In this document: one piece after another, positions 3,944 to 21,674 of the stretch
Layout of the letters: the number at the start of each line of letters is the position of its first letter
Numbering within the stretch: position 1 is the stretch's first letter
DNA from: a virus
Reading direction: 5' to 3' (one strand)
Virus record (IMG/VR): IMGVR_UViG_3300044800_000075
Coordinates: 1-39,140 of that record
Length of the DNA: 39,140 bases
The notes under the pieces: model-generated
Database searches by the model: none
The model's input: the letters and a program-made list of their open reading frames with translations, nothing else
Told to the model about the DNA's origin: nothing
Position numbers and translations under genes: made by a program

Positions 3944-4279
3944 ATGGAACAATGGCAATTAAGTAAAGACATTCTGGACACTGTCCGGCATGTGGCTCAT
4001 GACTGGTCACAGGGCGTGGTGATACTCAAGCCGTTCAACGGGGATTTCGTGATATTAGCCGTCGTAAGAGTAGATGCCTATTCGCCAAGTAATAACATTC
4101 ATAATTCAACCATCGTTGGTAAGGATGTCACAATGTTGGTACAGCAGAAGCTGAACGTGGCTAACCCACGGGGTGCTAGTCCTGTGGTGTCATATATTGA
4201 TGGTATTAAAGAGGAACAAACGTGGACGGTGCCTCACACAGAAACATGGTACTGGATAAAAGTTGCTGACGTGTTTTGA
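3944..4279 (+). CDS. hypothetical protein (111 aa)
   Basis: The product is a 111-residue soluble protein with alternating hydrophobic strands (GVVILKPFNGDFVILAVVRV) and an aromatic C-terminus (TETWYWIKVADVF), which suggests a small beta-rich fold. No cysteine motif, signal peptide or membrane segment is present. It sits between the zinc-ribbon gene and another unassigned gene. No family recognised. Confidence 0.65.
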   Translation: MEQWQLSKDILDTVRHVAHDWSQGVVILKPFNGDFVILAVVRVDAYSPSNNIHNSTIVGKDVTMLVQQKLNVANPRGASPVVSYIDGIKEEQTWTVPHTETWYWIKVADVF

Positions 4280-5910: not shown

Positions 5911-6117
5911 ATGAAAGACTTAGTGAATCTTTGGCCTATTGGTTTGATAGTATTGATATTGATAATTACGTTGGTTTGGGGTTGGTTGGATGAAAAAGAG
6001 GCTAAGAAGGAAGTCAATTTTAAAAAAATATGGTATAATAAGATTAATTACATACCGGAAGATAAATTGCTTGATGAAGGATTGTCACCAAAAGAAAAGA
6101 AGTCATTTAATAAATAA
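5911..6117 (+). CDS. small single-TM protein (68 aa)
   Basis: The N-terminal segment WPIGLIVLILIITLVWGWL forms one membrane helix (residues 8-26), followed by a charged cytoplasmic-type tail with several lysines. It starts at an ATG preceded by ATAAATTAAT. The next gene begins 7 nt after the stop. Possible roles include accessory lysis or superinfection exclusion, but no motif supports either. Confidence 0.6.
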   Translation: MKDLVNLWPIGLIVLILIITLVWGWLDEKEAKKEVNFKKIWYNKINYIPEDKLLDEGLSPKEKKSFNK

Positions 6118-6124
6118 ATTTGTT

Positions 6125-6898
6125 ATGAAAACACTAATGTTCTTTTTACTTTTTTGCTTTGCCTGTACAAAGATAGAATACATCACAGAACAAGCTGCAA
6201 CAACTGGGACAGCTACTGATTCTAGCAAGGTGGGAGAAACAAAACCTGCCAAAGATACTGTGAAGAAACCAGTAAAACCTATTGATACAGTGATCGTGAA
6301 AAAGCCATATACCCTTCATGATTTTGACGGTAATGTCTATGATTCTGTTATTTTAGGTACACAAATATGGTTGGTTGAAAATCTTAAGACAACTCATTAC
6401 AATAATGGTACACCAATTCCTCTTATTATAGATAGGAGCATTTGGGCAAACTCATTAACACCTGCTATGTGTTGGTATGATAATGACCTAACTTATAAAA
6501 ATATAAGTGGTGGCTTGTATAATTATTATTGTGTTAACACTGGTAATATTTGCCCAATAGGTTGGCATGTGTCAACAGATGGTGATTGGAAGATATTAGA
6601 AATGTCAATGGGTATGAGTTTTACTGTAACAGACAGTTTAGGCTGGCGAGGTAAAGGGTATGCTTTCATTTTAGAATCATCTAATTTCAAAGCATTATTT
6701 GCAGGTTTTAGAAGTGCATATAACGGCGATTATGGGGATTATAGTCTAAGTACTGAATGGTGGACTAGTTCGAGGTATGACGAAACTACAGCATATACTA
6801 GAAGTATTGAAGCTCCTAGTAGTTATGTTAGTAGTTATATATATAGGGGATCAGCCACTGAATCAATGGGTGCTTCTGTCAGATGCGTAAAAAACTAA
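6125..6898 (+). CDS. lipoprotein with Fibrobacter succinogenes major paralogous (FISUMP) domain
   Basis: The start is the ATG at 6125, preceded by AATAAATTTGTT; a longer in-frame start at 5990 would overlap the previous gene and bury the signal peptide. Residues 1-14 (MKTLMFFLLFCFAC) form a lipoprotein signal with the lipidated Cys at 14. A Thr/Pro/Lys linker follows (to about 62). Residues 66-257 match FISUMP (TIGR02145): DFDGNVYDSVILGTQIW, VENLKTTHYNNGTPI, NICPIGWHVSTDGDW and the final SVRCVKN. FISUMP proteins are surface lipoproteins of Bacteroidota and Fibrobacter with unknown role. It would sit on the host outer membrane, possibly altering the lysogen or infected-cell surface. It was probably acquired from the host. 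Confidence 0.88.
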   Translation: MKTLMFFLLFCFACTKIEYITEQAATTGTATDSSKVGETKPAKDTVKKPVKPIDTVIVKKPYTLHDFDGNVYDSVILGTQIWLVENLKTTHYNNGTPIPLIIDRSIWANSLTPAMCWYDNDLTYKNISGGLYNYYCVNTGNICPIGWHVSTDGDWKILEMSMGMSFTVTDSLGWRGKGYAFILESSNFKALFAGFRSAYNGDYGDYSLSTEWWTSSRYDETTAYTRSIEAPSSYVSSYIYRGSATESMGASVRCVKN

Positions 6899-10706: not shown

Positions 10707-10725
10707 ATCACTAAATCGTAGTGAT
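10707..10725 (+). promoter_or_regulatory. hairpin over the start of the glycan operon
   Basis: ATCACT (10707-10712) and AGTGAT (10720-10725) form a perfect 6-bp stem with a 7-nt loop. The right arm covers the GTG at 10721 and the first bases of the ATG at 10724, so it could hide the start codon in RNA or act as an operator in DNA. Confidence 0.45.
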
Positions 10726-11350
10726 GATAATCAAAGGATTCTGGCACATATATTGCATTTCACATTGGTACACTATAATCACAGATCAGTTGCGTATTAT
10801 GCTGGACAGTGGGTTGTATGATGCCGTAGAGGAGATTAACATTGGTTGCATTGGTGACGAGCAGCAATGTGCATTACTGGACAAACTTTTTATTAATCAG
10901 TACTCGAAGCTTAAAGTCCAGTACACTTCTACTAATCCCCTGGATTATGAATATCGTACACTTAAACTTATTGAAGCAGACAACAGTGAATACACAGGTT
11001 TTTACTTTCATACCAAAGCAGTCACTCAACCTGCTAATACTATTCAGAACCACTGGCGGGCATGGTTGAACGAAAGTGTGTTGAACGACTGGTATCATCA
11101 CTTTCACAACATAGAGATTGGTTTCGATGTATCATCAGTCAATCATTGCACTCCACCGTTGCACCCGGAACACTTCTCAGGGAACTTCTGGTGGTTCAAT
11201 CGTAAGTATATTAATAAACTTCCGGCTATTGACTCACTGAACTGGACAAATCGTTACAATGCAGAACAATGGATATGTAAAGGTCATGGACGGTTTTATG
11301 CTAATGAGTTTAAAGAACCTGGTCGTGACGTATTTTTAATGAAACACTGA
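10724..11350 (+). CDS. putative glycosyltransferase, first gene of the glycan operon
   Basis: I choose the ATG at 10724 (208 residues); a GTG one codon earlier is also possible. The features are YTGFYFHTKAVTQPANTIQN, HWRAWLNESVLNDWYHHF, then HFSGNFWWFNRKYINKLP. The FHTKG-type motif and the SGNFWW stretch recur in bacterial proteins of polysaccharide loci, where they accompany sugar transferases. No classic DxD is clear, so the enzyme class is uncertain. The next gene follows after one nucleotide. Confidence 0.6.
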   Translation: MIIKGFWHIYCISHWYTIITDQLRIMLDSGLYDAVEEINIGCIGDEQQCALLDKLFINQYSKLKVQYTSTNPLDYEYRTLKLIEADNSEYTGFYFHTKAVTQPANTIQNHWRAWLNESVLNDWYHHFHNIEIGFDVSSVNHCTPPLHPEHFSGNFWWFNRKYINKLPAIDSLNWTNRYNAEQWICKGHGRFYANEFKEPGRDVFLMKH

Positions 11351-11351
11351 T

Positions 11352-12092
11352 ATGTATGATATTTTAATTTTAGTTACTGAAAAGGATTTTGTTAAACTCG
11401 AGTATTGTGTTGATGCTATCAGAAGGAATCTTGAGGGATTCAACAAGATTTACTGTGTATCTGATACGCCTGTTATAGATGTGATTCTGGGGCTTGAATA
11501 TTTCTTAGACAGGGATGTTGTTAATTTTAATTTTGCCAGCCTTACGGGTGATCCCGGGCAACATAAAGGTTGGTATCGTCAGCAATTCATTAAGTTATTT
11601 CAGAATGTAACTTCAGATGATTACTTGGTAGTTGATTCTGATGTCATTATAAACAGGAAACTAGTTGTAGAAGAAAGCAATAAGCCCTGTTTTCTATTAG
11701 GTAATGATCAGTGTCATGGATATTATTTTGATCTGATGAAGAAGGTGTTTGATCTAGACAAGGTGTACCCACATTCATTTATTTGTGAGGTGATGTATAT
11801 GAAGCGAGCTATTGTTCAGGAGATGCTTCATACATATAGTGTTGACAAGTATAGTTTTTTTGACAAGGTTGTGGGGGAGTTGAATGCTAGGAATTATTCA
11901 CCTGCCTTTTCTGAATATGAGTTTTATGGGAACTTTGTAACAAAGTATTTTCCTGGTTCTTATATGTATAAGCATGTTGTATCATGTTTTGGTGCAAAGT
12001 TTGAGCTTTGGAAGGAGTCTGATATTATTGAATATCTCAATTCACTCAAAAATTCTGAGTATGATTTAATAACACTACACTCATGGATTTAG
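11352..12092 (+). CDS. glycosyltransferase, DUF6492-type (GT-A fold)
   Basis: The 246-residue protein has an N-terminal nucleotide-sugar-type strand (ILILVTEKDFVKLEYCVDAI), GWYRQQFIKLF (73-83) and a DxD-type metal site in YLVVDSDVI (DSD at 95-97). The GWxxQQ-K and VVDSDV pair is characteristic of DUF6492 transferases of capsule and LPS loci. It overlaps the next gene by 10 nt. Sugar donor and acceptor cannot be read from sequence. Confidence 0.78.
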   Translation: MYDILILVTEKDFVKLEYCVDAIRRNLEGFNKIYCVSDTPVIDVILGLEYFLDRDVVNFNFASLTGDPGQHKGWYRQQFIKLFQNVTSDDYLVVDSDVIINRKLVVEESNKPCFLLGNDQCHGYYFDLMKKVFDLDKVYPHSFICEVMYMKRAIVQEMLHTYSVDKYSFFDKVVGELNARNYSPAFSEYEFYGNFVTKYFPGSYMYKHVVSCFGAKFELWKESDIIEYLNSLKNSEYDLITLHSWI

Positions 12093-12970
12093 TAATGTTT
12101 CATAGTGGAGGGACTTTGCCAGCGTTTCTGGAATGTAATTTTAAACAGATTCGTCTATTTAATCCTGATATTAATGTGTTTTTCTTAACAGATAGTGGTT
12201 TGATGAATGATCCCCTGTTTGAGAAGTATGAAGTAAAAGCATTGAACAAAGATAATTATTATTCTGATAAAATCCGTCAATTTGAATTCGTGTTTACATA
12301 TGATAGAAATGACTTGTGGTTCTTAGCAGCAGTAAGATTGTTTTATATAGAAAACTTTTTAAAGAGTCAGGGATTAACGGATGTATATCATTTTGAGAAT
12401 GATGTGTTGTTATATTATGATTTGAGTGAACATCATAGTAAGTTTCAACGTTTGTATCAGAACATAGCAATCACGCCCGGCGGCCCTGATAAGTCAATGA
12501 CTGGCTTCATGTTTATCCGGTATAGTGAATCACTGGCTAGGATGACCCAGTTTTTTATTAGTGTTTTACACATCTATGGAATGCAGGGGATAATAGATGC
12601 TTATCATATGGATATGCTTAATGAGATGACGTTGATGAAGGCTTACCATCTGGATTTTGGAGATAAATATATAACCGATCTACCTATCTTACCTTTTGGG
12701 GAGCATTCAGAGAATTATTCAGAGTTTCATTCTGTGTTTGATCCAGCTAGCTGGGGTCAGTTCGTGGGTGGCACCCAGACGTGGGGGCCAGGTGCTACAC
12801 CACCAGATCATTACATTGGACAGTTGCTGATGGCACATCCTGAATATACAGTCACTTGGTACAGAGATGAGCAAGGAAGAAATATTCCATATTTTAAGTA
12901 TGATGATGTTGAAGTAAAGATAAATAACTTACATATTCATTCAAAGAATTTACATTTATATATCAGTTAA
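12083..12970 (+). CDS. putative glycosyltransferase (GT-A-like)
   Basis: The 295-residue protein has an N-terminal Rossmann-like strand (MDLVMFHSGGTLPAFLECNF), a PDINVFFLTDSG stretch and an acidic metal-site-like motif in VYHFENDVLLYYD (E105, D107), in the usual place for a DxD in a nucleotide-diphospho-sugar transferase. A glycine/tryptophan-rich segment (ASWGQFVGGTQTWGPGATPP) may form the acceptor site. It is flanked by transferases and overlaps both neighbours. The exact family is not certain. Confidence 0.68.
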   Translation: MDLVMFHSGGTLPAFLECNFKQIRLFNPDINVFFLTDSGLMNDPLFEKYEVKALNKDNYYSDKIRQFEFVFTYDRNDLWFLAAVRLFYIENFLKSQGLTDVYHFENDVLLYYDLSEHHSKFQRLYQNIAITPGGPDKSMTGFMFIRYSESLARMTQFFISVLHIYGMQGIIDAYHMDMLNEMTLMKAYHLDFGDKYITDLPILPFGEHSENYSEFHSVFDPASWGQFVGGTQTWGPGATPPDHYIGQLLMAHPEYTVTWYRDEQGRNIPYFKYDDVEVKINNLHIHSKNLHLYIS

Positions 12971-13560
12971 TGATAGATTTTAACATCATATCATTTGGGG
13001 AAATGTTACCATATGAACGGTATAAACTTTATACATGGGTTGTTGACATCAATCCAAAAAGCATATTGGAAGTTGGTTGTGGGGAAGGTGGTGCAACATA
13101 CTGCATGGCGGAAGCTATTATGAAATTGAACTCTGAAGCAATGATACATGCTTGTGATCCCCGGCAGATGTTGGATGGGAAATTTTTTAAAACATATCCA
13201 TTTGTTAATTATTATCAGATGGAGTCCCATGAATTCATACAACATATTATTAAGGAAAAAATAAGTGTTGATTTCATACTGTTTGATGGTCCAGAGGAGC
13301 TTGATGTAGCCCTGGAAGATATTATGGTGCTAGAACAATATATTAAAGCAGGGACGTTCTTTTGTATGCATGATTGGGAATTACTCAGGCGAGGTTATGA
13401 CGGGGGAATGTCTACTAAAGCTCAAAAGATACGTCCATACATAGAGCAATCTGAACGATGGGTGAAGAAAGAAGTGTTGAGTGGGGTGCACAAAAACAGC
13501 ACAATTAATGATGAATGTTTTGATTCTGTTGGTTTATGTTTATATGAATTTATAAAATGA
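12970..13560 (+). CDS. class I SAM-dependent methyltransferase
   Basis: Motif I is SILEVGCGEGGA (31-42), which binds S-adenosylmethionine; DFILFDGPEEL later in the sequence marks the motif IV strand, and FFCMHDWELL follows as in methyltransferases acting on sugars (Methyltransf_24-like). It starts at a TAATG overlap with the previous stop. In a glycan operon the likely job is O-methylation of a sugar, though amino-acid or lipid substrates cannot be excluded. Confidence 0.8.
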   Translation: MIDFNIISFGEMLPYERYKLYTWVVDINPKSILEVGCGEGGATYCMAEAIMKLNSEAMIHACDPRQMLDGKFFKTYPFVNYYQMESHEFIQHIIKEKISVDFILFDGPEELDVALEDIMVLEQYIKAGTFFCMHDWELLRRGYDGGMSTKAQKIRPYIEQSERWVKKEVLSGVHKNSTINDECFDSVGLCLYEFIK

Positions 13561-14357
13561 CAGATTTTATACAGGGTGAACGGTTCATTGGATTAGCCAA
13601 CAATATGGATATCTTTTATCGTCATACACATGATGTGAATATGTTTTTTAAAAACCAACGGGTATTTAATGATTTTATACTGATCAGTCACAATAGTGAT
13701 GGGTGTGTGACTGACAATTTAGAGAACCCTGATAGTGCAGATTCTAGATTAATACCTAGTAATCTCGTTCATTGGTATGCTCAGAATGTTAACGTGGTTA
13801 ATGATAGGATAGAGTCTATTCCTATTGGCTTAGAAAACTCTCAGTGGTTCCCTGAAGTGCAGAAGCGACAGAAGATGATAACGAAACTCACTCAACTACG
13901 CAACATTAAAAATTTAGTATATGTTAATCATAACATAGGAACTAACATGGGGGAACGGTTGGTGGCTTATCAATTGTTAGAGGGCAAGCCATGGGCAACT
14001 ATAGGTAGGGGTGCTAATGGTTGTGGGTTTGATGAGTATCTTGATAACATATACCATCATCAGTTTGTTGTATGTCCAGATGGTCATGGTATTGACACAC
14101 ATCGGGTGTGGGAGACTCTGTATATGGGGTCTATACCTGTTCAGCGTCGTGGAATTAATAATCAGTTTTACAAGGATCTGCCTATTTGTTTTGTGAATAG
14201 TTGGGAAGAAGTGACTGAGGACTTTTTAAATGTTGAATACAAACGTATTTCAGAACAGTTATGGAATTTAGAGAAGTTAAATTTTAGTTATTGGAGCAAT
14301 AAAATATTAAATTATGATAAATCTAAAGTTATTAATTTGGGTGACCAGTGTTTGTAA
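13557..14357 (+). CDS. exostosin/GT47-like glycosyltransferase
   Basis: The C-terminal half has the hallmark FVVCPDGHGIDTHRVWETLY followed by MGSIPV (residues 170-195), the nucleotide-sugar site of exostosin-like transferases (CPxGxGxDTxRxWEALxxGxIPV). The N-terminal half is a second Rossmann-like domain (SNLVHWYAQNV...IESIPIGLEN), as expected for a GT-B enzyme. It starts in a 4-nt ATGA overlap and its end overlaps the radical SAM gene by 44 nt. Confidence 0.8.
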   Translation: MTDFIQGERFIGLANNMDIFYRHTHDVNMFFKNQRVFNDFILISHNSDGCVTDNLENPDSADSRLIPSNLVHWYAQNVNVVNDRIESIPIGLENSQWFPEVQKRQKMITKLTQLRNIKNLVYVNHNIGTNMGERLVAYQLLEGKPWATIGRGANGCGFDEYLDNIYHHQFVVCPDGHGIDTHRVWETLYMGSIPVQRRGINNQFYKDLPICFVNSWEEVTEDFLNVEYKRISEQLWNLEKLNFSYWSNKILNYDKSKVINLGDQCL

Positions 14358-14994
14358 TCTGACTTGTCCACTTTGTAACCAGAGTTATTCTATGACTCTC
14401 AACCCTGATTATCAAATGGGAATGGATGAATTAAAGAATATTATTAGTTCTTGTAAACGTCGTGGAATTCATTTTAGTATTATTGAATTAATAGGTGGGG
14501 AACCTACTTTATGGGTTAATCTCCAGGAAGGCGTTGAAGCATTAAAGGAAATTACAGATGATTTGTTCTTTGTAACGAATGGAAACAACCCTGAGTTGGT
14601 TATGAGTTTAGGATTGAAGCATTGGATTGTTTCAACAAGTCAGGCTTCTCCTGAACAGGTTAAAAAGTATGAATGTTGTAGTTCACAGTTCTTACGTAAT
14701 GATCATCACCATAAAAAAGTGCCAACAGTGCCAGTTCCTAATTCATTACCGGCTGATTGTGTAGTAGATAGGGATCCTTTCAATCCTGTTCAATTAGAAA
14801 ATGGAATGGCTTATTTGAAAGGAAATGTTTATTATTGTAACCTTGGTTTTGCTTTGAGTGACAGGGTGCCGTTGACAAGTGATATGATTTGTAACTTCGA
14901 AGATGATTTTGTAACGAAATTTTCAAACAAGAAATTTGATAAAAAAATATGTCAGTATTGTTTATGCAATGGTAATGTTTGGCGTGCAATATAA
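14314..14994 (+). CDS. radical SAM protein in the glycan operon
   Basis: The canonical cluster motif CNLTCPLC (C14, C18, C21) binds the [4Fe-4S] cluster and GGEPTL (61-66) is the SAM-binding motif. Extra cysteines in the C-terminal third (YYCNLGF, ICNFED, KKICQYCLCNG) could hold an auxiliary cluster as in SPASM or twitch proteins. At 226 residues it is short for this class but covers the partial barrel. The start codon at 14314 lies inside the previous gene (44-nt overlap), which suggests coupled translation. Its substrate may be a sugar, a peptide or a virion protein; this is open. Confidence 0.85.
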   Translation: MINLKLLIWVTSVCNLTCPLCNQSYSMTLNPDYQMGMDELKNIISSCKRRGIHFSIIELIGGEPTLWVNLQEGVEALKEITDDLFFVTNGNNPELVMSLGLKHWIVSTSQASPEQVKKYECCSSQFLRNDHHHKKVPTVPVPNSLPADCVVDRDPFNPVQLENGMAYLKGNVYYCNLGFALSDRVPLTSDMICNFEDDFVTKFSNKKFDKKICQYCLCNGNVWRAI

Positions 14995-15000
14995 TGATTT

Positions 15001-15519
15001 ATGAAGCTTGTAGAGTTGTTTAAAACAGGAATCTATCATACTGATAAGGGCTATCCCCATCATTATCTGGAATTGTATGATGAATTATTTGCACCGTTTC
15101 AGGATAAACCTATTAATGTTTTTGAAGTGGGTTATTATTTGGGAGGTAGTTGTAAGTTATGGGAGGATTATTTCACAAAAGCAAATATTAGATTTATTGA
15201 TATTAGAAAACCTTTAACATCTCCAAGATGGGGTGTGCTCACACTGATGAATAGTAAAGATTTGACAACTGAATATTTTAAAGATTTTCCACCAGATATT
15301 GCCATTGATGATAGTACACATTACTTGAGTGATCAGATTCATTTCATTAAAGTAACTTATCCAGCTGTACGTACAGGAGGTATATTGATTGTTGAGGATG
15401 TTATTGACTTAGAAAAATATAGACCTTCTTTCGAGGTATTGGGTATTCCTTTTGAAGTTGTTGACCAGAGAAAAGAATCAATGCAACCAGCAGATGTCTT
15501 ATTAATTTTTAGAAAATGA
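15001..15519 (+). CDS. SAM-dependent methyltransferase (sugar O-methyltransferase-like)
   Basis: The motif I equivalent is NVFEVGYYLGGSCKLW (39-54). DIAIDDSTHYLSDQI (99-113) and GGILIVEDVIDLE follow; the DDSTH and IVEDV pair is typical of macrocin- or mycinose-type O-methyltransferases that use a metal ion and act on deoxysugars. The length, 172 residues, is that of a minimal domain. It begins 6 nt after the radical SAM gene and overlaps the next gene by 4 nt. The sugar target is inferred from the context. Confidence 0.75.
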   Translation: MKLVELFKTGIYHTDKGYPHHYLELYDELFAPFQDKPINVFEVGYYLGGSCKLWEDYFTKANIRFIDIRKPLTSPRWGVLTLMNSKDLTTEYFKDFPPDIAIDDSTHYLSDQIHFIKVTYPAVRTGGILIVEDVIDLEKYRPSFEVLGIPFEVVDQRKESMQPADVLLIFRK

Positions 15520-16334
15520 TTCCAAAGAAATGTCATTTGTATTGGGATAAGTCCCCGATGGCTCAGTTGAATGTTTTAACAGTAGTGTCATTTCATAAAT
15601 ATAATCCTGATTGGGAAATTGTGATTTATCTTACTAAACAACCTTATTATGAACTTGGTAAGAATATATATGTACCGAATTATACTGGGAAGGATTATTT
15701 CTATAAGTTATCAACATTGGATTATGTTAAAATTGTAGAAATTGATCTTACAGAATGGGGAATTAATAAAGATATTCCTGCTTGTATGAGTTCTGATATA
15801 TTTCGTAGGAAAATATTGTATGAGCAGGGTGGAGTGTATTCTGATTTTGATACCGTATGGTTACGTCCGATTGAATATTTAAGTAATGTGGATTGTATTG
15901 GAAATCCTATAGATTTTGAGAGTCTTGTTTGTTTTTATGAGTTTACTCACGGGTTTCACAATGTATCAAACCTGATCTCAGAAGTGAGTAGTTTGTACGT
16001 AGCATCACTGATTGAAGAAGAAAAAAAGGTGCAACCGCCATACGGTCATCAGGATTTTGGATGTGATCTTTTATGTAGAAAATATCCTGACTGGGAATCT
16101 GTTGTATCAAGGTTTCCACGAATGTTGGCTATTAAGTATGAGACATTTTATCCATATTCAACGTATCATATGGAGAGATTGTTTATAGAAAATGATTTAA
16201 CCCCACTTAAAAACAAGAATGTGATGGGTATTCATTGGTTTAATGGTAATGATAAAAGTGTTAATTATGTTAATCAGGATAAATTCACTGATTGTAGTAT
16301 GACATCAATATTAAAAGTAGAAGGATACATATGA
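15516..16334 (+). CDS. GT32-type glycosyltransferase (Gly_transf_sug, OCH1-like)
   Basis: Residues 1-12 (MIPKKCHLYWDK) are the characteristic IPKxxHxxW start of GT32 enzymes. SSDIFRRKILYEQGG (92-106) and VYSDFDTVW (107-115) carry the SDxxRxxxLYxxGGxYxDxD signature, with the DxD at D110 and D112. These enzymes transfer mannose, galactose or related sugars. The gene overlaps its neighbours by 4 nt on both sides. Donor specificity cannot be read. Confidence 0.9.
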   Translation: MIPKKCHLYWDKSPMAQLNVLTVVSFHKYNPDWEIVIYLTKQPYYELGKNIYVPNYTGKDYFYKLSTLDYVKIVEIDLTEWGINKDIPACMSSDIFRRKILYEQGGVYSDFDTVWLRPIEYLSNVDCIGNPIDFESLVCFYEFTHGFHNVSNLISEVSSLYVASLIEEEKKVQPPYGHQDFGCDLLCRKYPDWESVVSRFPRMLAIKYETFYPYSTYHMERLFIENDLTPLKNKNVMGIHWFNGNDKSVNYVNQDKFTDCSMTSILKVEGYI

Positions 16335-17107
16335 TTTCAATCGTAACAGCTTATTACAACAGGAAAAGTTTGTTTTTGGCAACTTTGCAATCAATAGCAA
16401 GAACAGTGTATAAGGACTTTGAGGTTATTGCTGTTGATGATGCAAGCCGGGAAGAAGAGAGATTAGAGGATTTATTACCAAAGTTTCCTTTCTTACGAGT
16501 TATTCGGGTAGAAGAAAAGGATAAATGGTATGCTAACTCATGTATTCCTTATAATATGGGTGTTGCTAAGGCTATTGGTAATATTATTGTGCTTCAGAAT
16601 CCTGAATGTTTACACGTACACGATGTTTTAAGTTATGTAGCACAGGCAGTTCATAATGATAATTATATATCAATGTCAACATACTCTATTGATGCTAATT
16701 TAACACAGAGTGTTTTATTATCTACTGAACCACTTACATTTTTAAAGACTTTGCCTCAACGGCATGTTGACGGTTATGTGGGCTGGTATAATCATTCAGT
16801 GTACAACCCATGTGAATTTCATTTCTGTTCAGCAGTTTCAATGGTTAATATAATAAAGCTAGGAGGGTTTGATGAACGTTTTGCCAATGGAATCGGTTAT
16901 GAAGACAATGAGTTTCTTGATCGAGTTAATAGATTAGGGTTGCATAAGATTATTAACGATGATGTTTCAGTAATTCACCAATGGCATCCAAAGGTGTATG
17001 ACCTTAGCACTTCCACCTACCTATGGGATTTATATATTATGAATGGTAATTTGCATTTAAAAACACAGAATGAAACTATAATTCATGTTAAAAATAGTTA
17101 CGTATGA
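16331..17107 (+). CDS. GT2-family glycosyltransferase
   Basis: The N-terminus MISIVTAYYNRKSLFLATLQ and EVIAVDDASR (31-40) are the nucleotide-binding strand and first acidic motif of family 2 transferases. GGFDERFANGIGYEDNEFLD later in the sequence is the ED acceptor-side motif. IVLQNPECLH stands where the DxD normally is, with N/E in place of the usual aspartates, which may affect metal binding. It overlaps its neighbours by 4 nt. Confidence 0.88.
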   Translation: MISIVTAYYNRKSLFLATLQSIARTVYKDFEVIAVDDASREEERLEDLLPKFPFLRVIRVEEKDKWYANSCIPYNMGVAKAIGNIIVLQNPECLHVHDVLSYVAQAVHNDNYISMSTYSIDANLTQSVLLSTEPLTFLKTLPQRHVDGYVGWYNHSVYNPCEFHFCSAVSMVNIIKLGGFDERFANGIGYEDNEFLDRVNRLGLHKIINDDVSVIHQWHPKVYDLSTSTYLWDLYIMNGNLHLKTQNETIIHVKNSYV

Positions 17108-17832
17108 TAACGTTCCGAAATAAGTTTTTTGGTCACCGTCCGACGATTGATCATACAGAAGCATTTGATACAGGCTTTGGTAATCTGCTGTTCTGGATTG
17201 CTGGTACTATTGGTATTGCAGTAAAGAATGGTTATGAGTATACGTTTCCAGCATGGAACAACAGACAATTCTTTACACACCCCCTACCGGAGAGTGTGAT
17301 TGATGAAAGCAGGTATCAGGAGTTTGACATTCCTTGGGGGTTTCATGGTTTTGATGTTCCTGATAACGTTACTATTTTTGGTTTCATGCAGACAGATAAA
17401 TATTTTGCTCATTGTGGGGATTTGATACGTTATTATTTTGAGTTGAAGCCACCAGTGGGTATAAAACCGTACGAAGATTGTATATTAATGCATTATCGGA
17501 ATTATAAACATCCGTGGTTCGTTGATCTGGGGCGGGAATATTATCTGGAGGCATTAAAACATCTGCCTGACCGTCATGTGGTAATTGTCACCGATAATAT
17601 TACTGAGGCAAGAAAAGCAATTGGTGGAGACTTTGAATATGTTAGTAATACTCCTTGGGTAGATTTTTATCTATTGTCAAAGGCTGATTATATTGTGATA
17701 GGCAATAGTTCGTTCTCATGGTGGGGTGCCTGGTTATCCCGGGCTGTTACTGTGGCACCATCTCGTTGGTTTACGGATGAGTTACCACAATCAACTGAAG
17801 ATTTTTATTGTGAGAATTGGTTAAAAGTATAA
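17104..17832 (+). CDS. GT11-like fucosyltransferase (alpha-1,2-type fold)
   Basis: GFGNLLF (24-30) matches the G-x-GN-x-LF start of GT11, FGFMQTDKYF (92-101) the GYFQxxKYF motif, ILMHYRNY (127-134) the place of the HxRRGD donor site, and IVIGNSSFSWWGAWL (197-211) the signature C-terminal NSSFSWW motif. The HxRRGD site is altered (HYRNYKH), so donor preference may differ from GDP-fucose. The length, 242 residues, is slightly short for the family (about 280). It overlaps the previous gene by 4 nt. Confidence 0.85.
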   Translation: MITFRNKFFGHRPTIDHTEAFDTGFGNLLFWIAGTIGIAVKNGYEYTFPAWNNRQFFTHPLPESVIDESRYQEFDIPWGFHGFDVPDNVTIFGFMQTDKYFAHCGDLIRYYFELKPPVGIKPYEDCILMHYRNYKHPWFVDLGREYYLEALKHLPDRHVVIVTDNITEARKAIGGDFEYVSNTPWVDFYLLSKADYIVIGNSSFSWWGAWLSRAVTVAPSRWFTDELPQSTEDFYCENWLKV

Positions 17833-17835
17833 AAT

Positions 17836-18432
17836 ATGAAGATAGTTATTGACGAAGGTTCTGGGACTATTTTTGATGATGATCGTCCCTGGTTAGGGGG
17901 TAATATTCGTGGTGGGGATACTCACTGTGAGGATCCAGTAGTATGGGATTATTTAATTAGTAGGTTTAAACCTCAGAATATTATTGACATTGGTTGTGGT
18001 GAAGGACAGTTAATGAAATATTTTTATAATCACAATATTTTGGTTTTGGGTGTTGATGGGTTAGAAATAAACAAAGAAAATGCAGATTTGTCTATTGCTG
18101 ATATGATTGTTGTACACGATTATCAGAATGGGGCTTTGATTATTCCAGCGGATATGGTTTTATCATGTGAATTTGTTGAGCATGTTGATGTGAGGTATAT
18201 GGTTAACTTCCTTCCACAGTTTTGTGCTTGTAAAACCTTGATATTTACTCATGCTGTACCAGATCAATTAGGTTATCATCATGTCAACTGTCAAACAGAT
18301 GAGTACTGGGTCACGTTGATGACTACTTTAGGACTGACATTTAAAGAAGAAGAGACTGCTTATGCCCGGTCATTAGTGAAAGATAGTTTTTGGAAAACAT
18401 TACTAATTTTTGAACAACTTATTATAATTTGA
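17836..18432 (+). CDS. class I SAM-dependent methyltransferase
   Basis: NIIDIGCGEGQLMKYF (48-63) is motif I, VLGVDGLEIN motif II, and DMVLSCEFVEHVD the motif IV/post region of Methyltransf_11/23-type enzymes. It is the third methyltransferase of the operon. The N-terminus (DRPWLGGNIRGGD) is unusual for this class and may help position the substrate. The target is probably a sugar of the same glycan. It starts 3 nt after the fucosyltransferase-like gene. Confidence 0.82.
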   Translation: MKIVIDEGSGTIFDDDRPWLGGNIRGGDTHCEDPVVWDYLISRFKPQNIIDIGCGEGQLMKYFYNHNILVLGVDGLEINKENADLSIADMIVVHDYQNGALIIPADMVLSCEFVEHVDVRYMVNFLPQFCACKTLIFTHAVPDQLGYHHVNCQTDEYWVTLMTTLGLTFKEEETAYARSLVKDSFWKTLLIFEQLIII

Positions 18433-18436
18433 AAAT

Positions 18437-19138
18437 ATGAAAATAGAAGTCTATGCCCTTACAAACAATGAAGAACGGATAATGCCATATTTTATGCGTC
18501 ATTACATACAATTTGCCCATGTTATCCTGTTGGAAAACAATTCTACAGATCGAACGGTCGAGATAGCTCAGTCAATGGGTGCCGAGATTTGGCGGTATGA
18601 TGTACCAGATGAGATCAATGATGCATGGTATCTAGAGGTCAAGAATAACTGTTGGAAGAACAGCAAGGCTGATTGGGTAATAATTTGTGATGCTGATGAG
18701 TTTATATACCATTCACATATCGTTGAATATCTTGAAAAGACAGATGCAACAATTTTTCTGCCAGGGTTATGGAATATGTTTTCTGAGAAGTTTCCTACTA
18801 CTGTAGGTCAGATTTATGAGGAAGTTACTGGTGGACGTCCGGGTGGACCAAAGATGAATCTATTTCGTCCCTCAGAGATCAAGGAAATAAATTATGATGC
18901 TGGTTGTCACATGGCACATCCGACGGGGAATGTCCATTTGAATGCCAATTCTGAGATAATGACTTTTCACATGCGTCATCTGTCAAAGGAGTATGTTAAT
19001 GAGCGCAATGCAAGGAATTTTGCACGTCTGAGTGAAGTCAACAAAAAGAACAACTGGGGGTATCATTTTGGTAGTTCCTCAGAAGAAGTCAGCCAATTTA
19101 TGGATAATGAGATGACTGTATTAATAAAAGTTATATAA
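18437..19138 (+). CDS. GT2-like glycosyltransferase (Glyco_tranf_2_4 type)
   Basis: The protein opens with MKIEVYALTNNEERIMPYFM and HVILLENNSTDRT (28-40), the NEE and D/N-NSTD signature of the Glyco_tranf_2_4 group. The DxD is in WVIICDADEFIYH (D85, D87). The C-terminal part includes a histidine-rich stretch (HMAHPTGNVHLN, TFHMRHL). It starts 4 nt after the methyltransferase stop. Many homologues of this type sit in capsule and O-antigen loci. Confidence 0.86.
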   Translation: MKIEVYALTNNEERIMPYFMRHYIQFAHVILLENNSTDRTVEIAQSMGAEIWRYDVPDEINDAWYLEVKNNCWKNSKADWVIICDADEFIYHSHIVEYLEKTDATIFLPGLWNMFSEKFPTTVGQIYEEVTGGRPGGPKMNLFRPSEIKEINYDAGCHMAHPTGNVHLNANSEIMTFHMRHLSKEYVNERNARNFARLSEVNKKNNWGYHFGSSSEEVSQFMDNEMTVLIKVI

Positions 19139-19139
19139 T

Positions 19140-19733
19140 ATGGTACTTCATGTGCTTTGTGTAGCTTATAACCGAGTGTTACCCCTACGTGGGTTGATAG
19201 ATTCTTTTATGAACCAGACAGATGCCCGGTGGTCATTGTATATTATGCATGACGGACCAGCACCAGAAGGAGTGCTTAGGGTAGTCAATGATCCATTTTA
19301 TACCACTGATGGACGGGTGCATTATAAAGAAACACCTCAGTGCAATGGTGAGTTTGGTCACCCTAACCGTCGAATGATGCTGGAGAACCTGGCTGGTGCC
19401 TGTGATGATATGGTGTTGATTACTAATGATGATAATTATTATGTACCGGCTTTTGTAGAGGTTTTTCTTAAAGAATGCCGAGCAGATGTTGGGATGGTAT
19501 ATTGTAATACACTTCATAGTTATATGCAATATACGGTGATGTACACCCGTGTTAAAGAGAATTATATTGATATGGGATGTTTTATTGTGCGTTCTGACGT
19601 AGCAAAGTCAGTAGGGTTTAATCAGACTAATCATTCAGCTGATGGGGCGTATGCCGAGGCGTGTGCCCGGCGTTGTGCAGAACGACATCTGAGAGTTATC
19701 TATATTGACAAGCCCTTGTTTGTCCATAATTAG
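19140..19733 (+). CDS. GT2-like glycosyltransferase (GT-A), last gene of the operon
   Basis: The start MVLHVLCVAYNRVLPLRGLI and LYIMHDGP (33-40) mark a GT-A nucleotide-binding domain. MVLITNDDNYYVP (91-103) carries the metal-binding acidic pair (D97, D98). The length, 197 residues, is short for the family, with little C-terminal extension. It begins one nucleotide after the preceding gene and is followed by a 74-nt A/T-rich gap holding a family A element. Confidence 0.8.
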   Translation: MVLHVLCVAYNRVLPLRGLIDSFMNQTDARWSLYIMHDGPAPEGVLRVVNDPFYTTDGRVHYKETPQCNGEFGHPNRRMMLENLAGACDDMVLITNDDNYYVPAFVEVFLKECRADVGMVYCNTLHSYMQYTVMYTRVKENYIDMGCFIVRSDVAKSVGFNQTNHSADGAYAEACARRCAERHLRVIYIDKPLFVHN

Positions 19734-21100: not shown

Positions 21101-21184
21101 GGCAGGGTGGTTCCTTTTACATAATCAGGATTTTAGTTTAATAACCAGTACTTACATACTTCCAATAATCACCCTGCCTTTTTT
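21101..21184 (+). terminator. long-loop hairpin followed by a T run
   Basis: GGCAGGGTG (21101-21109) pairs with CACCCTGCC (21170-21178), extended by three inner pairs including one G-U, with a loop of about 54 nt, then TTTTTT. The strong G/C stem and T run suggest termination of the upstream genes. The long loop is unusual and may itself be a small structured RNA or a boundary of the tmRNA precursor. Confidence 0.55.
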
Positions 21185-21185
21185 G

Positions 21186-21266
21186 AAAGTTCTTTGAAGA
21201 CAGTTGTTACTAGAGGTCTGTAGAGTAGTCTGTTTGGACACGGGTTCAATTCCCGTCAGCTCCACA
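21186..21266 (+). ncRNA. ssrA: permuted tmRNA, acceptor piece (3' half)
   Basis: The 3' end is that of a tmRNA: the T arm ACGGG-TTCAATT-CCCGT (21240-21256) is followed by the acceptor strand CAGCTCC (21257-21263) and discriminator A. GGAC precedes the T arm, as in Escherichia coli tmRNA, whose end reads GCCAGCTCCACCA. CCA is not fully encoded (CAA), so enzymatic addition is needed. Upstream segments TTGTTACT (21204-21211), GGTCTGT (21215-21221) and CTGTT (21230-21234) form the 3' strand of helix P2 with the piece at 21463. The 5' end is approximate. It lies before, not after, the 5' half, so the gene is permuted. Confidence 0.85.
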
Positions 21267-21462
21267 ACTAGGATTAATAGAAGTAATACTCTGATTGATT
21301 GTGATAGAGTGCTTGATGTAAAATCAGTAAGACAAGCAAGAGTGCTTAATAAGACTAAAGCAATACTCTTTATTAATGTTGCTCTTCAGAGAGTTTACAG
21401 ATGTCGGTTATATCCTGTAAATGAAAGACAATCCTATTAATCCTTCGCCTTATTAAAAATAA
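21267..21462 (+). other. intervening segment of the permuted tmRNA gene
   Basis: These 196 nt join the 3' terminus to the 5' terminus and would be cut out of the precursor. AGGATTAATAG (21270-21280) and CTATTAATCCT (21434-21444) are a perfect 11-bp inverted repeat, which would bring the two mature ends together. Inner hairpins include ACTCT/AGAGT near 21288-21310 and TTTACAG/CTGTAAA (21394-21421). There is no believable gene; a frame running 21204-21440 is chance, since it crosses the tRNA-like part. Confidence 0.7.
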
Positions 21463-21630
21463 GGGGCTGATCTGGTTTTGACAGCAGAGGAGTGTAACAG
21501 ATCAATGAAGGTAACAAGCATGCCAATTAAATGGCAAAACAATTCAAATGCCTGAAAGGGCACAGGTTAACATGGCCGCATAGGCTGAAGACGACCGACT
21601 GAGGGGAAAGTACTCAGTGCATTCCCCTCT
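21463..21630 (+). ncRNA. ssrA: permuted tmRNA, coding piece (5' half with tag)
   Basis: It begins GGGGCTG (21463-21469), which pairs fully (one G-U) with CAGCTCC of the upstream piece, followed by ATCTGGTTTTGAC, close to the ATTCTGGATTCGAC D-loop of standard tmRNA. GACAG (21480-21484), ACAGATC (21497-21503) and GGTAACAA (21510-21517) pair in antiparallel order with CTGTT, GGTCTGT and TTGTTACT upstream, building helix P2. GCATGCC (21518-21524) matches the conserved stretch after P2, and TGCCA/TGGCA (21521-21536) is a possible pseudoknot-1 stem. A tag frame and a pseudoknot follow. SmpB would come from the host. Confidence 0.85.
21554..21583 (+). other. tmRNA proteolysis-tag reading frame (ends N-M-A-A-stop)
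   Basis: The frame reads Glu-Arg-Ala-Gln-Val-Asn-Met-Ala-Ala and then TAG at 21581-21583. tmRNA tags usually end in a hydrophobic residue plus Ala-Ala, the signal for ClpXP. The resume codon is not certain: GAA at 21554 (9 nt after the possible pseudoknot) and GCA at 21560 are both possible. The frame is open upstream past 21545. Confidence 0.6.
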
Positions 21631-21635
21631 TTTAT
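21598..21635 (+). terminator. pseudoknot / terminator at the end of the tmRNA locus
   Basis: ACTGA (21598-21602) can pair with TCAGT (21614-21618), and GGGGAA (21603-21608) with TTCCCC (21622-21627). The two stems interleave, so together they form an H-type pseudoknot, as found after the tag in tmRNAs. The GAGGGGAA/TTCCCCTC hairpin alone, followed by TCTTTTATTTT, also works as an intrinsic terminator. Confidence 0.65.
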
Positions 21636-21674
21636 TTTAAAATTATAAATATGATGATACGAACTGAACAAATA

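Follow-up and report, generated by a model that had tools for sequence, protein, structure and literature searches.

Permuted tmRNA genes, the product of a rare kind of rearrangement, have so far been reported from a few bacterial lineages (alphaproteobacteria, betaproteobacteria and cyanobacteria) and from organelles and phages. The Methylophilales phage Melnitz possesses a two-piece tmRNA, and excerpts of the same report count 53 two-piece forms in a set of 133 unique phage tmRNAs, with 50 of these two-piece forms coming from marine or aquatic phages (PMC9004378). The original prediction of the gene studied here mentioned ordinary tmRNAs in phages but omitted these permuted ones. Excerpts of other reports cover 79 phage sequences (PMC11915505) and ten phages with ssrA (PMC4131195), or bring in permuted tmRNA as background only (PMC10085705). 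The excerpts of PMC11915505 contain no discussion of crAss-like or Bacteroidota phages, and those of PMC10537231, which deals with another phage of the host of Chryseobacterium phage MA9V-3, do not mention tmRNA. Among the matches listed from open-licence papers, none treated permuted tmRNA in Bacteroidota phages. The gene analyzed here is not the first permuted phage tmRNA; its kind is ordinary and its detail is new.

The gene is located on the plus strand at 21204–21638 of the window, i.e., the whole 39,140-nt stretch of viral DNA that was analyzed, and its acceptor piece precedes its coding piece according to both RF04321 and ARAGORN. RF04321 (tmRNA_permuted) scored 63 bits against a gathering score of 47 (E, 5.1e-10), with a match at 21205–21583 that spans the whole model; this was the sole Rfam match at or above a gathering score in the window. 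RF00023, the standard tmRNA model, gave 31.9 bits, below its cut-off of 47, and the ends are not in the ordinary order. ARAGORN called a permuted tmRNA at 21175–21674 with the tag GKTIQMPERAQVNMAA, while 100 shuffled windows preserving nearly all dinucleotides yielded no tmRNA call, permuted or standard. The covariance-model and ARAGORN checks proposed with the original prediction thus both came out in its favor, and their agreement supports a permuted tmRNA in a phage of the Bacteroidota type, with the host assigned as described below. The reversed ends were found where they had been predicted, the T stem and loop with CAGCTCC (21240–21263) preceding GGGGCTG and the D-loop-like ATCTGGTTTTGAC (21463–21482). 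The 7-bp acceptor stem is exact, with G-U as its third pair, and the predicted end at 21630 falls directly past the terminator-like stem. The three P2 segments do pair in antiparallel order, but their lengths were recounted as 7, 7 and 3 bp instead of the predicted 8, 7 and 5 bp. Given the sequence, a structure with covariation in one relative, the reading frame and the distribution that we observed, the gene taken as a whole is very probably a phage-encoded circularly permuted (two-piece) tmRNA. Its features are compiled in Table 1.

Table 1. Features of the permuted tmRNA gene (L004, diverged relative)
Feature	Position in window	Strand	Remarks
Acceptor (tRNA-like 3') piece: P2 3' strands, T arm, acceptor strand, discriminator A	21204-21264	+	5' end inferred; 80% identity to L004
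P2 distal strand UUGUUAC	21204-21210	+	Pairs with 21511-21517
P2 middle strand GGUCUGU	21215-21221	+	Pairs with 21497-21503; two double-sided changes in L004
T stem and loop ACGGG-UUCAAUU-CCCGU	21240-21256	+	Two double-sided changes in L004
3' acceptor strand CAGCUCC	21257-21263	+	Pairs with 21463-21469
Spacer (intervening sequence), 198 nt	21265-21462	+	Expected to be excised; unconserved relative to L004
5' acceptor strand GGGGCUG and D-loop-like region AUCUGGUUUUGAC	21463-21482	+	RF04321, ARAGORN, sequence
P2 5' strands ACAGAUC and GUAACAA	21497-21517	+	Co-folding, pair count
Small stem UGCC/GGCA ending in resume codon, at the expected PK1 site	21521-21536	+	Invariant in L004, hence no covariation support
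Tag reading frame: resume codon GGC at 21533, GKTIQMPERAQVNMAA, stop TAG at 21581-21583	21533-21583	+	ARAGORN; in frame in L004
Hairpin within tag frame UGCCU-GAAA-GGGCA	21549-21562	+	Two double-sided changes in L004
Terminator-like 3' stem-loop (21601-21629) with U tract	21601-21638	+	-18 kcal/mol, z -3.0

The CCA end is not encoded, as CAA directly follows the discriminator A21264, and the D-loop reads UUUGAC. When the two pieces were co-folded, the acceptor stem, the T stem and both of the longer P2 helices were recovered; relative to 60 shuffled versions of the acceptor piece, the interaction energy had z = -2.0. Co-folding was tried on 15 genes, and z values more negative than that of the window, which L236 shares, were obtained for L092 (-3.7), L095 (-3.1), L242 (-2.5) and L004 (-2.2); the others were L175 (-1.9), L168 (-1.8), L094 (-1.0), L177 (0), L291 (+0.1), L290 (+0.7), L275 (+1.3, wrong T arm picked) and L123 (+1.5), with L285 left out. 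P2 was not recovered in several of these relatives, and on these results we claim P2 for the window and L004 only. At the expected PK1 site upstream of the tag, folding without pseudoknots gave a stem of 4–5 bp. The stem at the resume codon, which had first appeared by eye to be specific to the group, was rejected as such a feature: a hairpin of at least 4 bp around this codon was found in 5 of 13 genes with GKxI-type tags, 1 of 6 with GN-type tags, 20 of 66 AND-type phage genes and 7 of 35 standard Bacteroidota genes, a host set mostly chosen by other searches and thus non-random. The terminator-like stem was absent from the output of a consensus terminator scan; by eye, an alternative pairing of 21598–21603 with 21613–21618 could form a pseudoknot there. 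A sigma-70 promoter scan, the consensus of which does not cover Bacteroidota promoters, returned 2 sites versus 3.8 in shuffles.

An independent copy of the gene was found in L004 (IMGVR_UViG_3300047586_000094), the portal protein of which is 74% identical to that of the window in the portal search. The L004 copy scored 70.5 bits with RF04321 and occupies the same place, adjoining the same gene, which is lysozyme-like by a weak PHROGs match. The two copies are 80% identical in the acceptor piece and 83% in the coding piece (118 nt). In contrast, the spacers (198 nt in the window and 188 nt in L004) are unconserved: their identity of 0.586 is no higher than that of shuffled spacer, which averaged 0.588 over 100 shuffles. 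Among 38 proposed pairs, 28 are the same in both, 4 changed on one side, 6 changed on both sides and none is broken; as the pairs were picked from these very sequences, this is strong but not blind evidence. The double-sided changes are divided equally among the T stem, P2 and the tag hairpin (two each), and the 17 P2 pairs of the two sequences contain two double and three single changes with none broken. The tag of L004, read by eye as GKTINMVERPQALRLAA (ARAGORN gave another tag), keeps its frame with a 3-nt insertion, and both tags begin with GKTI and finish with AA. L002/L006 duplicates the window's phage almost exactly, with 100% identity in the portal and in ten further proteins, and was excluded as independent evidence.

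The nearest phage by portal protein, L003 (77%), is the sister of the window in the portal tree with support of 98/70 and matched neither RF04321 nor RF00023, so the gene is dispensable. The leader GTTCTTTGAA, which directly precedes the acceptor piece both in the window and in L004, recurs at 4274–4300 of L003, a similarity that 2 or 3 of 200 mononucleotide shuffles equaled. The L003 stretch at this site looks non-coding. A decayed tmRNA copy in L003 was considered and rejected: the short leader alone is shared, and the coding piece gave no signal.

The distribution of the gene was examined in 84 portal-family records, comprising the window, three named phages and records from the wider portal scan (the best 80 of 109 loci). 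In this set RF04321 exceeded its cut-off in eight records representing seven distinct phages: the window, G001, G003, G022, G046, G048, G056 and Chryseobacterium phage MA9V-3. ARAGORN made no tmRNA call in G022 or G046, the latter being barely above the cut-off (48.7 bits). Four further RF04321 matches were below the cut-off, two of which, G066 and G067, bear the standard form. RF00023 exceeded its cut-off in 5 of 83 records (G030, G037, G042, G066 and G067; G004 left out). The counts of both forms are lower bounds, as many records are short fragments. MA9V-3 is a cultured phage (PV245944.1; circular, 103,203 bp), and its tmRNA is annotated as 'transfer-messenger RNA SsrA'. In the maximum-likelihood portal tree of 83 rows, the rows of the permuted-gene carriers MA9V-3, L057 (G046) and L059 (G048) form one clade (100/100); its sister, the L048 group, has a standard-form gene, and the joint six-row clade has support of 99/96. 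The standard L048 tag GKQINFRPSFSPMRFAA resembles, by eye, the tag AKVINLFTPQMRFAA of the permuted L095 (the record of L059). In-place rearrangement was rejected as the origin, as protein comparison showed that the records of L048 and L059 share ordered genes but not around their tmRNAs. Because the genes around the two tmRNAs were not found to correspond, the switch cannot be read as the scar of a local inversion or duplication.

A BLAST search of the phage collection with the tmRNAs of MA9V-3 and L123 led to crAss-like genomes. Among eight loci selected by similarity, a count that gives no prevalence, ARAGORN called six permuted (cr60_1, cr114_1, cr125_1, cr10_1, cr50_1 and cr272_1) and RF04321 exceeded its cut-off in four (cr53_1, cr114_1, cr10_1 and cr50_1); seven were permuted by one or the other and cr56_1 by neither. 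Their tags are of the GN...V.DYT kind. In five crAss-like phages (among L286, L288, L289, L290, L291 and L295), the tmRNA has a RAGATH-9, RAGATH-20 or RAGATH-22 RNA no more than about 1.5 kb away, and a RAGATH RNA is also near the matched stretch of cr56_1. The Cellulophaga phages phi38:1 and Calle_1 have standard-form tmRNAs.

A pattern search of IMG/VR for permuted genes in which the spacer is short returned at least 120 rows. Among the matches listed, 83 unique ARAGORN-permuted genes had a parsed 5' end; 70 of them have AND/AN tags and all of these read UUCGAC, and the other 13 comprise eight with UUUGAC and five with UUCGAC. Two GKxI-type genes (L172 and L242) had been removed as duplicates beforehand, and the count does not cover a few loci where ARAGORN made no call, one of them being L236, which exceeds the RF04321 cut-off. 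Virus contigs commonly carry permuted tmRNAs, with the window's kind forming a minority among the matches listed. The D-loop and tag marks are not exclusive to this kind: UUCGAC is found in MA9V-3, and a Gly-first tag in Pelagibacter phage Mosig. The ARAGORN tag of Mosig (L298; alphaproteobacterial host), GEDNFALAA, is near Bacteroidota host tags such as GEDNYALAA.

The host of the window's phage is probably a member of Bacteroidota, as judged from its best portal relatives with a stated host, namely, Chryseobacterium phage MA9V-3 and the Bacteroides phages DAC16-23 and SJC03 (about 33% identity); a FISUMP-domain protein encoded in the window fits this assignment. The single best named-phage match of the portal protein was an unassigned fecal phage (40%), and most of the 636 records matching it are weaker matches in Staphylococcus, Bacillus, Enterococcus and Listeria phages. 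All 20 genome contigs that matched GGGGSTGANNYTGGNTTTGACAGC were titled as Bacteroidota, among them those of Blattabacterium and Muribaculaceae, which we take to belong to this phylum. As to other contents of the window, the FISUMP (Fibrobacter succinogenes major paralogous domain) gene is a phage gene at 5990–6898, and a run of glycosyltransferase, methyltransferase and radical SAM genes occupies 10721–19733, upstream of the tmRNA; eight of nine frames scanned in this run had a Pfam match, some weak or below the cut-off.

We also searched bacterial genomes. With strict filters, RF04321 gave matches with E ≤ 0.001 in 33 of 395 Bacteroidota genomes and exceeded its cut-off in one; the 11 next-best matches examined (L124–L134) were standard genes by ARAGORN, and none of seven further genomes (one, G082, also among the 395) exceeded the cut-off. 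The sole genome over the cut-off, G321, carries a permuted gene with the tag GKVIQMNNAPVRLAA on a 1.6-Mb contig, adjoining phage replication genes (DnaB-like helicase, Sak4-like, DNA polymerase and exonuclease), and has its own standard tmRNA of 160 bits. Given these replication genes, a 5143-residue open frame and the separate standard tmRNA, we read the permuted gene as lying in a prophage at about 936200 (left end approximate) to 998380 of G321:C1, which is presumably crAss-like from its gene content. In 99 Bacteroidota genomes, most of them also among the 395, RF00023 found a full-length standard tmRNA over its cut-off in 96; ARAGORN called 95 of these, all standard and none with a [GA]KxI tag. 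A Gly-first tag is present in 33 of the 95, and the D-loop reads UUUGAC in 22 of 73 parsed, 18 of these 22 having a Gly-first tag. A standard Bacteroidota tmRNA missed by ARAGORN was recognized by eye at 1–460 of L107 (CALGDB010000078.1).

The permuted form in these phages may have arisen by a separate permutation or been acquired by transfer. Descent from the permuted alphaproteobacterial, betaproteobacterial or cyanobacterial lineages, and not from a Bacteroidota-type one-piece tmRNA, is a serious possibility, if on balance doubtful. A single permutation followed by spread would require fewer rearrangements, and virus contigs hold many permuted genes with AND/AN tags, as counted above among the matches listed. 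However, UUCGAC was found in every one of those AND/AN-tag genes versus UUUGAC in 8 of the 13 others, the UUUGAC of the window recurs in Bacteroidota hosts (22 of 73), and related phages carry the standard form, with the L048 tag being similar by eye to that of L095. Since both gene forms occur in related phages with a similar tag and the D-loop is common to part of the Bacteroidota hosts, the data lean toward permutation within Bacteroidota phages, which is plausible. A broader proposal, which we put forward tentatively and regard as rather doubtful in its full extent, is that Bacteroidota phages evolved their own permuted tmRNA from the Bacteroidota-type one-piece form, independently of the alphaproteobacterial, betaproteobacterial and cyanobacterial permutations and perhaps repeatedly, and use it with a tag of their own (GKxI... 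or GN...V.DYT...) by which rescued proteins meet a different fate from that set by the YALAA-like host tag.

RNase P, RNase Z and CCA addition act on tmRNA ends, tmRNA tags generally direct proteolysis, and a G-U third acceptor pair is the identity element for alanine. Permuted tmRNA precursors are cut by tRNA-processing enzymes, according to the excerpts of PMC11915505. We infer the following scheme of transcription, processing, charging, ribosome use and benefit to the phage. One transcript, with the acceptor piece leading, would terminate at the terminator-like stem near 21630. Host RNase P would cut at G21463, and RNase Z or other 3' processing after A21264 would be followed by CCA addition, so that the spacer is removed while P2 and the acceptor stem keep the two RNAs together. 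Through the G-U third pair, host alanyl-tRNA synthetase would be able to charge the tmRNA, which may then enter stalled ribosomes with host SmpB. Translation would switch to the GGC codon, adding, after the charged Ala, a 16-residue tag that ends in Ala-Ala; the ribosome would be freed and the stalled product marked for proteolysis. Because the window's tag lacks the YALAA/YAMAA-like end typical of most of the 95 sampled host tags, and some related tags end in AVA, ATA or IGA, degradation cannot be assumed. The phage may benefit from ribosomes being kept available during infection, possibly via a tag unlike that of the host.

SmpB (PF01668) was found in none of 11 phage records, among which MA9V-3 is the sole complete genome, so smpB could be missed in the others; on this count host SmpB would be needed, and these records, most of them fragments, do not contain a complete phage-borne trans-translation system with its partner protein. 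The same absence would suit a decoy, i.e., a tmRNA-like RNA that sequesters host SmpB and blocks host trans-translation, as has been proposed for the tag-less tmRNA of mycobacteriophage DS6A (excerpts of PMC4131195 and PMC11915505). We consider this improbable for the window's gene, as the gene has a tag frame, complete with resume codon and stop, that stays in frame in L004, and tag frames are also read in other permuted relatives. A decayed or functionless remnant, which the patchy occurrence (8 of 84 portal-related records) and the lack of a tmRNA in L003 might suggest, is very improbable in view of the compensating double changes, the conservation of the pieces versus the spacer, and the intact acceptor stem with its G-U third pair. 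That a standard gene was cut and rejoined in reverse during assembly, conceivable for a 39-kb metagenomic virus record, has a negligible probability, as the arrangement recurs in the separate diverged contig G003, the cultured MA9V-3 record and several RefSeq crAss-like genomes.

The permuted tmRNA of the window belongs to a little-described set in Bacteroidota phages, whose hosts mostly use the one-piece form. Related phages with both gene orders, linked to a phylum in which nearly every sampled genome has the one-piece form, make it possible to study the timing and manner of permutation, and the cultured MA9V-3 provides a system for testing how a phage profits from having a ribosome-rescue RNA and tag of its own. 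A proper description is likewise due for the tmRNAs that are annotated in RefSeq genomes of crAss-like phages.

In its general plan the gene is similar to those of Melnitz and other marine or aquatic phages, which are permuted and yield two pieces from one precursor; however, the Melnitz tmRNA groups with alphaproteobacterial ssrA and is associated with a glutamine riboswitch (excerpts of PMC9004378), whereas the window's group has mostly UUUGAC, tags of the GKxI kind and Bacteroidota-linked phages. The window's match spans the full RF04321 model above the cut-off, but the model was built from alphaproteobacterial, betaproteobacterial and cyanobacterial sequences only (excerpts of PMC11915505), and the group scores low (49–71 bits). 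From the commoner permuted tmRNAs of virus contigs with tags of the ANDxxxALAA type, the set differs in tag and mostly in D-loop. The one-piece tmRNAs of Bacteroidota hosts (RF00023) share UUUGAC (22/73) and Gly-first tags (33/95) with the window but have the other gene order and tags such as GENNYALAA and ADDYSYAMAA, with [GA]KxI in 0/95. Permuted tmRNAs are also found in crAss-like cr10_1, cr50_1, cr60_1, cr114_1, cr125_1 and cr272_1 and in MA9V-3, where they are called by ARAGORN and/or RF04321 and have Gly-first tags, as in the window; the crAss-like tags (GN...V.DYT...) are unlike that of the window, and the records say only 'transfer-messenger RNA, SsrA'.
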